Shown: in pieces, positions 29,536 to 32,247 of the stretch
Position numbering within the stretch: position 1 is the first letter of the stretch
Layout: each line of letters begins with the position of its first letter
Assembly (NCBI GenBank): GCA_030700025.1
Contig: JAUYKI010000010.1
Location: 80,648 to 113,948 of the forward strand
From: a bacterium
GTDB lineage: Bacteria; Patescibacteriota; Minisyncoccia; UBA6257; 02-FULL-45-10c
Reading direction: 5' to 3'
DNA length: 33,301 nucleotides
The notes under the pieces: model-generated
The model's input: only the letters and a program-made list of their open reading frames with translations
What the model was told of the DNA's origin: nothing
The model's database searches: none
Position numbers and translations under genes: made by a program

Positions 29536-30078
29536 ATGGCATCACAACCCCGATCTAAATATCCCAAAAGCAATATTCCGAAATTAAGAAAAGGAGCCGA
29601 GAAGTCTGGCTCCGGCCAATCGGGCTTGGTTTTGTGCAATGGCTGCCAGGCGGTTTATTTTAAAAAACACTGGCATCACGATTTATTAAAATTGAATTTG
29701 TCGGAATCAGCCAGCTTGGAAAAGAACAGCGATAAAAAGGTAAAATTTGCCCTTTGTCCGGCTTGCCAGATGATTAAGAATCGGCAATTTGAAGGAGAAG
29801 TAATTATAAAAAACGTTCCGGAAAAATTAAAAGAAGAAGTTATGCGTTTTGTCCGCGGTTTTTGCTTGCGGGCCTATCAGCGGGATCCGATGGACCGGCT
29901 GATTGATATTAAGGTTTTTGGAAAGGACATCGCGGTGACGGTAACGGAAAATGAGCTAGCCAGCAAGCTGGGAAGAAAAATGAAAAACCTTTTTAACAAC
30001 ACTAAAGTTAAAATTTCTTTTGACCATAAGCCTAGTAACGCGGCTAGGGTTGTGGTAGAGTTTCTCTCGAATAAGTAA
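29536..30078 (+). CDS. zinc-ribbon protein, NMD3-like
   Basis: LCNGCQAVYFKKHWHHD...LCPACQMIKNRQFEGEVIIKN; basic N-terminus. Confidence 0.55.
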   Translation: MASQPRSKYPKSNIPKLRKGAEKSGSGQSGLVLCNGCQAVYFKKHWHHDLLKLNLSESASLEKNSDKKVKFALCPACQMIKNRQFEGEVIIKNVPEKLKEEVMRFVRGFCLRAYQRDPMDRLIDIKVFGKDIAVTVTENELASKLGRKMKNLFNNTKVKISFDHKPSNAARVVVEFLSNK

Positions 30079-30096
30079 TTTTATAACAGACTCTAA

Positions 30097-30176
30097 GCGC
30101 TCGTGGTTGAATGGATACAATACTCCCCTCCCTCTGGGCCGTAAGGCCCAACGGGCCTGAGGCCGAAGGGAGTGAT
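30097..30176 (+). pseudogene. 5' part of an interrupted tRNA-Arg(CCG), through the variable loop, with a 33-nt insert in the anticodon loop
   Basis: GCGCTCG TG GTTG AATGGATA CAAT A CTCCC CTCC-[30132-30164]-GAA GGGAG TGAT. Confidence 0.8.
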
Positions 30177-30192
30177 AAAATTTGAAGTAATC

Positions 30193-30459
30193 ATGTTTTA
30201 TGTATATTTAATACAGAGCGAGAAAGATAACAGTTTTTATATAGGTCAAACCGAAGACGTTGAGAAAAGGTTGGCTAAACATAATAGCGGGAAGGTGATA
30301 ACCACTAAAAATAGAGTTCCTTGGAAATTATTAGGACATGAAGAGTATCCAGATAGAAATATGGCAAGATTTAGAGAATATCGTTTGAAAAGAAGTTTTT
30401 CAGAAAAGAAAAAATTTATTAGTAAGTTTTGTCTCCATAGCTCAATGGATAGAGCGTAG
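30193..30459 (+). CDS. GIY-YIG (URI domain) nuclease
   Basis: MFYVYLIQSEKDNSFYIGQTEDVEKRLAKHNSG...VPWKLLGHEEYPDRNMARFREYRLK; tail overlaps the tRNA. Confidence 0.9.
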   Translation: MFYVYLIQSEKDNSFYIGQTEDVEKRLAKHNSGKVITTKNRVPWKLLGHEEYPDRNMARFREYRLKRSFSEKKKFISKFCLHSSMDRA

Positions 30460-30502
30460 GCCTCCGAAGCTTGAGATGTAGGTTCGATTCCTACTGGGGA
30501 CA
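30431..30502 (+). tRNA. tRNA-Arg (anticodon CCG)
   Basis: Full cloverleaf GTCTCCA TA GCTC AATGGATA GAGC G TAGGC CTCCGAA GCTTG AGAT GTAGG TTCGATT CCTAC TGGGGAC A; no encoded CCA. Confidence 0.95.
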
Positions 30503-30506
30503 CAAT

Positions 30507-30547
30507 ACGGGTTCCCTGCCGGCAGGCAGGGATTCCTGTCGAGCGCA
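30507..30547 (+). pseudogene. 3' part (T arm and acceptor) of the interrupted tRNA-Arg, with a 16-nt palindrome in the T loop
   Basis: ACGGG TTC-[CCTGCCGGCAGGCAGG]-GATT CCTGT CGAGCGC A; CGAGCGC pairs perfectly with GCGCTCG at 30097-30103. Confidence 0.8.
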
Positions 30548-30592
30548 CATTAGAAAATATTAGTGAATATAATGAGCTTAGATTTTCTTATG

Positions 30593-30611
30593 CCCCGCCA
30601 TTGGCGGGGCC
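30593..30611 (+). terminator. GC hairpin followed by T-rich tract
   Basis: GCCCCGCC-ATT-GGCGGGGC then CTCATTTTTTATTTTT. Confidence 0.6.
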
Positions 30612-30703
30612 TCATTTTTTATTTTTCGGCGGACATAAATCTTGCTAATGGCTTAGGAGTAATTTACACTACTCTTAGTTCCAATGACTATAAGGGAGGA
30701 CAG

Positions 30704-31039
30704 ATGTTCTTAAAAAGCTGGAAGCCGATAGTTACTAATGGCGGAAATCCACAGGGCCGGGATTTGTTTCTGGTAATGAAAGTGGAACTGCAGTGTCCGG
30801 TTTGCGAGGAAGTAATGGCATTTGAAACCCAAAAACGCGCTTTGGAAGCCGGAGCGGAATTTTTACGAGATTGGGCGGCACATGATATTTTAGAGCCTAA
30901 AATGTGCCCCACCTGCGGAACTTATTCTGGATTGCCGGAAAGATATCAGCAACAGCTTCTTTTAGCTGCTAAGCAGGAAATTACCGCCGAGTGGCTGGAA
31001 GAAGAAAAGAAAAAGCATAACTTAGAATTCCTTTTGTAA
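30704..31039 (+). CDS. hypothetical protein with CxxC pairs
   Basis: ATG after GGGAGGACAG: MFLKSWKPIVTNGGNPQ...CPVCEEVM...CPTCGTYSGLPERY. Confidence 0.7.
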   Translation: MFLKSWKPIVTNGGNPQGRDLFLVMKVELQCPVCEEVMAFETQKRALEAGAEFLRDWAAHDILEPKMCPTCGTYSGLPERYQQQLLLAAKQEITAEWLEEEKKKHNLEFLL

Positions 31040-31290: not shown

Positions 31291-32247
31291 ATGTTTAAGT
31301 TGAGAAGAAACTACCCGATTGCTAAGCTTTCTACTTTCCAAATTGGCGGGCGGGCCGGGTATTTTTGCGAAGTTAAGAGCTTTAATGATTTTTTAAAAGC
31401 GGTTGAGACCGCTAAACAATCGGGAGTTTCTTATAAAATAGTGGCTGGCGGAAGCAATGTTGTTTTTCCGGATGGCCAGCTGAATCATTTGCTTATTAAA
31501 ATTAAAAATCTGACCTATCCTGCCATAAAGGCAATCGGAACCAAGATAGAAGCGGATTCCGGAGCGAATTTGATGCGGTTAATCAAAAAAGCGGTCGCTG
31601 GCGGATTGAGCGGGCTGGAAACGCTTTCGGGCATACCCGGAACTGTCGGCGGAGCGATTGTCGGCAATGCCGGGGCGTATGGGCAGTCAATTTCCGGCGC
31701 GCTGGAGCGGGTTTTAGTCTGGGACCCGGTTCAAAACAAGAAATTGTGGCTGGATAAAAACGAATGCCATTTTCAATATCGCCACAGTATTTTTAAGGAA
31801 CAGCCCTATTTAATTTTGCGCGCGGTTTTTAAATTTTCCGCCAAAGGCGGATCCGCCTCCGGCGGAAACAAAGAAAGAATTGTTGAATTAAAAACAATTT
31901 CTAACAATATTATTGCCACTCGTTTAAAAAAATATCCGGCGGGTTTGCGTTGCCCAGGAAGTTTTTTTAAAAACGTACTGGTGAAAGAAATTTCCGCCAA
32001 ATCTTTAAAGCTGATAAATCAGGAAAAAATAATAGAAGGCAAGATTCCCTCCGGCTATTTATTAGAGCAAATCGGCGCCAAAGGAATGCGGATGGGCGGA
32101 ATCCGGATCGCTGATTTTCACGGTAATTTATTGATCAATGACGGCCGAGCCAGATCGGAGGATGTTAAAAAGCTATCCAGGATTTTAAAAAATAAAGTTC
32201 AGAAAAAATTCGGCATAAATTTAGAAGAAGAAGTGCGGTATTTTTAA
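31291..32247 (+). CDS. murB: UDP-N-acetylenolpyruvoylglucosamine reductase
   Basis: LSTFQIGGRAGYFCEV, GGSNVVFPDG, SGIPGTVGGAIVGNAGAYG, PSGYLLEQIGAKG. Confidence 0.94.
   Translation: MFKLRRNYPIAKLSTFQIGGRAGYFCEVKSFNDFLKAVETAKQSGVSYKIVAGGSNVVFPDGQLNHLLIKIKNLTYPAIKAIGTKIEADSGANLMRLIKKAVAGGLSGLETLSGIPGTVGGAIVGNAGAYGQSISGALERVLVWDPVQNKKLWLDKNECHFQYRHSIFKEQPYLILRAVFKFSAKGGSASGGNKERIVELKTISNNIIATRLKKYPAGLRCPGSFFKNVLVKEISAKSLKLINQEKIIEGKIPSGYLLEQIGAKGMRMGGIRIADFHGNLLINDGRARSEDVKKLSRILKNKVQKKFGINLEEEVRYF

Follow-up and report, generated by a model that had tools for sequence, protein, structure and literature searches.

A tRNA-Arg(CCG) gene in the window, the 33,301-nt stretch of DNA analyzed here, is split by a 330-nt insert that carries a small GIY-YIG nuclease gene and an intact second tRNA-Arg(CCG). 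The insert is probably a free-standing homing-type element that enters a tRNA gene and brings a replacement isoacceptor with it. An earlier note had proposed such a compact nuclease element, breaking a tRNA gene while supplying an isoacceptor. The proposal gains support from contiguous copies of the broken gene in relatives and from the recurrence of the arrangement at other tRNAs.

The broken tRNA-Arg(CCG) gene and its inserts

Reading of the sequence places three interruptions in the tRNA-Arg(CCG) gene at 30097-30547: 33 nt in the anticodon, 330 nt in the variable loop and 16 nt in the T-loop. The 5′ part of the native gene (30097-30131), delimited by the sequence, relatives' copies and ARAGORN, holds the acceptor strand, the D arm and the anticodon arm as far as the anticodon, where a palindrome-rich insert of 33 nt follows (30132-30164). 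The gene resumes at 30165-30176 with the rest of the anticodon arm and the start of the variable loop, and is interrupted by the 330-nt insert at 30177-30506. It continues with the 5′ strand of the T arm and the start of the T-loop (30507-30514), is broken by a 16-nt CCTGCCGGCAGGCAGG-type palindrome (30515-30530), and ends at 30531-30547, where 30540-30546 pairs 7/7 with 30097-30103. All of these features lie on the + strand, and the edges of the inserts carry an uncertainty of 1-2 nt because bases repeat at the joints.

ARAGORN recognized the 72 nt left by removal of the three inserts as tRNA-Arg(CCG), whereas in the native, unjoined stretch the inner tRNA at 30431-30503 alone was recognized (Rfam tRNA, 66.3 bits). 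Uninterrupted tRNA-Arg(CCG) genes of relatives match the joined 72 nt over the full length at 89% (E = 8.5e-22), 85% and 85%, and the joined sequence is therefore not a chance construction. These results bear out the threefold interruption described in the earlier note; the two checks it had proposed here, a comparison of native with excised sequence and a search for an uninterrupted gene of native type in relatives, both came out in its favor.

The 330-nt insert, delimited by its sequence and by relatives, consists of a leader, a GIY-YIG nuclease gene (30193-30459, + strand, 88 aa) and the intact replacement tRNA-Arg(CCG) (30431-30503, + strand; ARAGORN and Rfam), which differs in sequence from the broken native tRNA and has the same anticodon. 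ATG at 30193 is the likely start codon, with GTG at 30172 as the alternative. The stop codon ends at 30459, so the last 29 nt of the gene lie inside the replacement tRNA. The protein matches PF01541 (E = 6.7e-15), and its closest solved structure is UPF0213 protein BH0048 (1zg2, E = 2.2e-9); the predicted fold is already fixed by Pfam and the solved UPF0213 structures. Residues of catalytic type (Y5, Y16, R26 and E62) are conserved, and together with the PF01541 match they place the protein in a known family of homing endonucleases. Its matches to PHROG homing endonucleases are weak, and it has no NCBIfam family. These GIY-YIG proteins, at ~80 aa, do not have the separate DNA-binding domain of I-TevI-type enzymes. 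The GIY-YIG gene is the sole recognizable gene in the 330-nt insert, which therefore holds no recognizable site-specific recombinase of the kind found in tyrosine-integrase tRNA-site elements. The content claimed for the insert in the earlier note, a GIY-YIG open reading frame plus an intact, different tRNA of the same anticodon, is confirmed by PF01541, ARAGORN and Rfam. A scan of viral contigs returned three distant relatives, none with an adjoining tRNA, and a viral origin finds no support.

The status of a mobile element holds for the 330-nt insert but not for the 33-nt and 16-nt inserts, which are widespread small palindromic repeats. These two were dropped as parts of the nuclease element because similar palindromes occur elsewhere in the genome and in murB. 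The 16-nt palindrome family is present at ~12 places in the window's genome, and the reversed control pattern at none. The inserts in tRNA remnants at other loci are mostly stereotyped ~30-nt double hairpins, with two 6-bp stems and 3-nt loops, placed at the D-arm, the anticodon or the T-loop. Hairpin inserts analogous to the 33-nt insert occupy the same anticodon site at Arg loci L200, L201 and L231, and at 7/8 Cys loci a double hairpin interrupts the anticodon at one identical point. The double hairpins may have arisen by repair at a cut, may be mobile repeats in their own right that dead genes tolerate, or may be partners to the nuclease. Short palindromes in coding and non-coding sequence are also known as Rickettsia palindromic elements and as double-hairpin elements of fungi. 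The hairpins of the present set differ in being sited at the D-, anticodon- and T-loop of tRNA remnants. Within the window, a 30-nt double hairpin at 31837-31866 (TCCGCCAAAGGCGGATCCGCCTCCGGCGGA) lies in frame in murB and adds SAKGGSASGG, like a palindromic peptide insertion.

Recurrence, target sites and host tRNA sets

The family was surveyed in 101 genomes of the same order, 384 genomes of the same class and a named species collection, with a two-sequence GIY-YIG alignment as the query for the collection scans. The survey drew its sample, 183 distinct small GIY-YIG genes, from a ranking by similarity to the protein in the window. A same-strand tRNA starts no more than 60 nt from the stop codon at 56 of the 175 small GIY-YIG genes with enough downstream sequence. 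The other three orientations gave 0, 2 and 0, and the rough chance expectation is <1 (by arithmetic from ~42 tRNAs per 830 kb). The count is conservative, because the automatic rule missed L201 and L231 despite a visible tRNA-Arg(CCG); many small GIY-YIG genes have no detectable adjoining tRNA. The 56 linked tRNAs carry 24 anticodons and belong to the isotypes Ala, Arg, Asn, Asp, Cys, Gln, Glu, Gly, Ile, Leu, Lys, Met, Pro, Ser, Trp, Tyr and Val. The search at other tRNAs that the earlier note had called for thus found the same architecture at many isotypes. Named Patescibacteria lineages hold members of the family, and further ones lie at tRNA-Asp in Bacteroidota and in one KSB1 bacterium.

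Remnants of an older tRNA accompany most of these genes. By hand count, a 5′ tRNA piece of the same isotype, beginning at nt 1-2, lies directly upstream of the nuclease at no fewer than 40 of the 57 associated loci, and a 3′ piece follows the intact tRNA at ~14 of the 57. In the window and at L004, L119 and L141, the old gene encloses the replacement tRNA rather than adjoining it. At L203 (1841-2042), 3′ fragments of tRNA-Glu stand in tandem downstream of an intact tRNA-Glu, with a double hairpin in each anticodon.

Empty and occupied alleles were found at two kinds of site. The tRNA-Arg(CCG) site is marked by an NMD3-like gene (29536-30078, + strand in the window), identified by a weak Pfam NMD3 match and by orthologues with a tRNA downstream; in relatives that tRNA is an intact tRNA-Arg(CCG). 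A genome of the same family (G005) keeps the window's order of NMD3-like gene, tRNA, open reading frame and murB-like gene. Two genomes of one genus, G007 and G012, differ in the type of their NMD3-linked tRNA-Arg(CCG), and in G012 a 5′ tRNA fragment with a double hairpin stands ahead of the intact gene. This fragment may be the scar of a completed replacement. No clean empty/occupied pair with near-identical flanks was found for the window locus. The second site is the tRNA-Cys downstream of rbfA, where 26 of 29 loci are empty (the window's genome included) and 3 are occupied. As to protection of occupied alleles from cutting, the old gene is split, and the replacement tRNA keeps much of its sequence in some loci.

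The relation between nuclease and target was measured on a tree of 57 tRNA-associated nucleases by shuffling the tRNA isotype labels 200 times. The label changes 27 times on the tree compared with a shuffled mean of 42.9, and 0/200 shuffles were as low. The Cys nucleases (8 rows) form a single clade with support of 100/98 and come from seven host families, which together with the label count indicates that lineages keep their target and cross between hosts. The Asp nucleases (4 rows) form one group (98/65), and at Arg(CCG) the window's nuclease groups with those of Doudnabacteria and Jorgensenbacteria (99/92). The alignment is too short to resolve many of the other forks. Switches also exist. 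Within the class sample, the window protein has its closest relative in L174 (59% identity), which lies at tRNA-Ile(TAT) and is accompanied by a 5′ fragment of tRNA-Ile; target specificity is therefore not absolute, and a target switch is visible. In members of one nuclease clade (L105, L127, L178, L184 and L190), found at Ala, Ser and Glu tRNAs, no more than 7-11 nt remain of the 5′ end of the old tRNA, and a CCCCACAC or CCCTCAC leader follows the remnant. The insertion point in these loci seems to be clade-specific.

The tRNA set of the window's genome was counted by an Rfam tRNA family search, with ARAGORN applied to the stretches around every match. The 98.7%-complete genome, a draft of 18 contigs, yielded 42 tRNAs, and the replacement copy at 30431-30503 is the sole tRNA-Arg(CCG) among them; the count that the earlier note had suggested turned up no other. 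The remaining tRNA-Arg genes have anticodons TCG, TCT, CCT and GCG. Host dependence on the element's tRNA is plausible, because no second tRNA-Arg(CCG) was found, and falls short of proof, because tRNA-Arg(TCG) might read CGG by wobble. The earlier suggestion that the host tolerates the element and then depends on it is thus backed in part by the sole copy and left unproven at Arg(CCG). The case is stronger for other members. The element-linked tRNA-Asn(GTT) is the only one in the single-contig G047 (36 tRNAs), and the element-linked tRNA-Ser(GGA) is the only one in the single-contig G058 (32 tRNAs). Among the 42 matches in the window's genome, tRNA-Phe and tRNA-His were not found and tRNA-Met was found once; the absent tRNA-Phe and tRNA-His may lie in assembly gaps or be interrupted.

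The window's genome carries eight GIY-YIG paralogues. One lies inside a tRNA-Ala(CGC) whose anticodon is broken; downstream of it come first an intact tRNA-Ala(CGC) of different sequence and next the remnant 3′ half of the split gene. Another precedes an intact tRNA-Gln(CTG), with two tRNA-Gln 5′ fragments ahead of the nuclease gene. The Ala element at L004 (1484-1960) is bounded by TCCCGAT...ATCGGGA, which matches the termini of the hairpin repeats, a hint that hairpins and nuclease cassette may be linked. Two near-identical GIY-YIG copies at contig ends (L003 on C17 and L006 on C7) stop at the same point; the sequence beyond, perhaps a tRNA, is unassembled.

Proposed mechanism and competing explanations

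The proposed element is a minimal GIY-YIG gene joined head-to-tail, with an overlap, to a complete tRNA gene. We infer the following order of events. In a recipient genome, the nuclease would cleave the DNA of the cognate tRNA gene, and repair would copy the element into the break. The old tRNA would be left split, and the cell would survive through the element's intact isoacceptor of the same anticodon. The dead tRNA halves would persist as scars in which small hairpin repeats are lodged. The nuclease lineages mostly keep to one tRNA isotype, move between distant hosts and occasionally switch target. Several observations count against this homing reading: at L111, L118 and L136 the intact tRNA shares its first 34-38 nt in full with the upstream fragment, so that the element's own tRNA might be open to cutting, the ~80-aa proteins lack the DNA-binding domain of I-TevI-type enzymes, tRNA-less GIY-YIG genes exist, the sample was ranked by similarity, and the close relative at tRNA-Ile(TAT) has another target. 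A broader form is put forward tentatively. Here, isotype-specialized selfish tRNA genes, each a nuclease plus a tRNA, might destroy and replace essential host tRNAs and so drive tRNA turnover across Patescibacteria and Bacteroidota, with the double hairpins as a by-product or partner of cutting.

The earlier note had allowed that an unknown RNA splicing process matures the broken tRNA, which would then be functional. The inserts lie in loops, the tRNA stems are formally pairable, and the anticodon of tRNA-Asn(GTT) in the window's genome holds a group I intron, a sign that this genome splices one tRNA or more. The intron served as a positive control at 71.4 bits. Because this intron was detected, the search would have seen one at the broken tRNA-Arg. 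Rfam searches for group I and group II introns at 29900-30800 with E up to 10 returned nothing beyond the tRNA itself and chance matches, and the 330-nt insert shows no ribozyme core of the sort that accompanies a homing endonuclease in such introns. An intact isoacceptor is also supplied within the insert, and the T-loop insert is a member of a dispersed palindrome family. Maturation by splicing is thus unsupported and highly improbable. The control tRNA-Asn(GTT) lies near 17.3-17.9 kb of G000:C12 (L375, reverse strand 1501-2112). By eye, its intron holds a short HNH-like open reading frame, and a second 3′ tRNA-Asn fragment lies just downstream.

The arrangement could also have piled up passively, tRNA loci being hot spots of recombination and insertion. 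A GIY-YIG gene would have landed in one of two copies of a duplicated tRNA and left the second copy intact, with neither homing drive nor a functional link. Tandem or partial tRNA copies at L120, L203 and L219 fit such a history, as do the many small GIY-YIG genes that stand without a tRNA. It is nonetheless unlikely given the one-sided, one-strand association (56 versus 0/2/0), the replacements within the old gene, the isotype clustering of nuclease lineages across hosts and the recurrent occupation of the rbfA-linked tRNA-Cys. Addiction at the RNA level, in which the nuclease would cleave the host tRNA or its precursor and the adjoining tRNA would be a resistant antidote, is modeled on phage tRNAs that resist anticodon nucleases. 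It would account for a same-anticodon substitute encoded with the nuclease and for breaks and hairpin inserts that fall in tRNA loops. An RNA nuclease leaves unexplained the physical destruction of the old gene at the insertion point. Pfam and PHROG relate the protein to DNA nucleases and homing endonucleases, and at several loci the adjoining tRNA matches the old one in the would-be cut region; this explanation is very unlikely. The 18-contig draft and the two paralogues at contig ends might suggest an assembly artefact joining two tRNA loci. The same architecture appears independently in dozens of genomes, including the single-contig G047 and G058, and the probability of an artefact is close to nil.

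Relation to known systems and significance

The nearest counterpart is T4 SegB, a free-standing GIY-YIG homing endonuclease encoded between tRNA-Arg and tRNA-Ile (PMC2988022). As summarized there, SegB acts on the tRNA region and favors inheritance of the tRNA genes (Brok-Volchanskaya et al. 2008 in PMC2988022), and it can amplify tRNA-Tyr (PMC13096335). Both are GIY-YIG enzymes without an intron that reside among tRNA genes. SegB is phage-borne and is not described as lying inside a tRNA gene with its own same-anticodon replacement, whereas the window-type enzymes are ~80 aa and chromosomal, fall into isotype-specific lineages and have a split target tRNA. Mobile introns of Tremella fuciformis mitochondria carry a duplicate of part of the host gene (PMC7315562). 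There too a conserved gene receives a mobile element that comes with its own copy of the displaced part, leaving a foreign replacement; the Tremella elements are introns of protein genes and carry N-terminal duplications, whereas here a whole tRNA gene is supplied and no intron is involved. Insertions with homing endonucleases are known from rRNA genes of CPR bacteria, with a few GIY-YIG enzymes in sequences that are not group I/II introns (PMC11270868). In both cases homing-type nucleases occupy structural RNA genes, and the bacterial group is the same, but that study concerns rRNA only, its GIY-YIG enzymes are sparse and outside homing, and its main text does not treat tRNA (PMC11270868). 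Group I introns in bacterial tRNA anticodon loops resemble the present case in their insertion in the anticodon region and in the homing nuclease within the insert. They differ in that no ribozyme was detected here and the old tRNA is lost and replaced rather than spliced.

None of these four papers (PMC2988022, PMC13096335, PMC7315562 and PMC11270868) describes nuclease-linked replacement of split tRNA genes, and no description of tRNA-replacing GIY-YIG elements was found in the open-access literature, subscription papers and preprints being outside the scope.

Broken tRNAs of this kind are likely to be overlooked by automated annotation, which may also carry the nuclease protein on into the tRNA. 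If the homing reading is true, the family is a source of very small candidate nucleases that are naturally specific for different tRNA genes, and a test case for a selfish gene that becomes indispensable by replacing what it destroys. Selfish elements would then repeatedly kill and replace essential tRNA genes across much of the bacterial tree, which would explain both why tRNA sequence turns over abruptly at conserved loci and why these genomes contain so many tRNA fragments.
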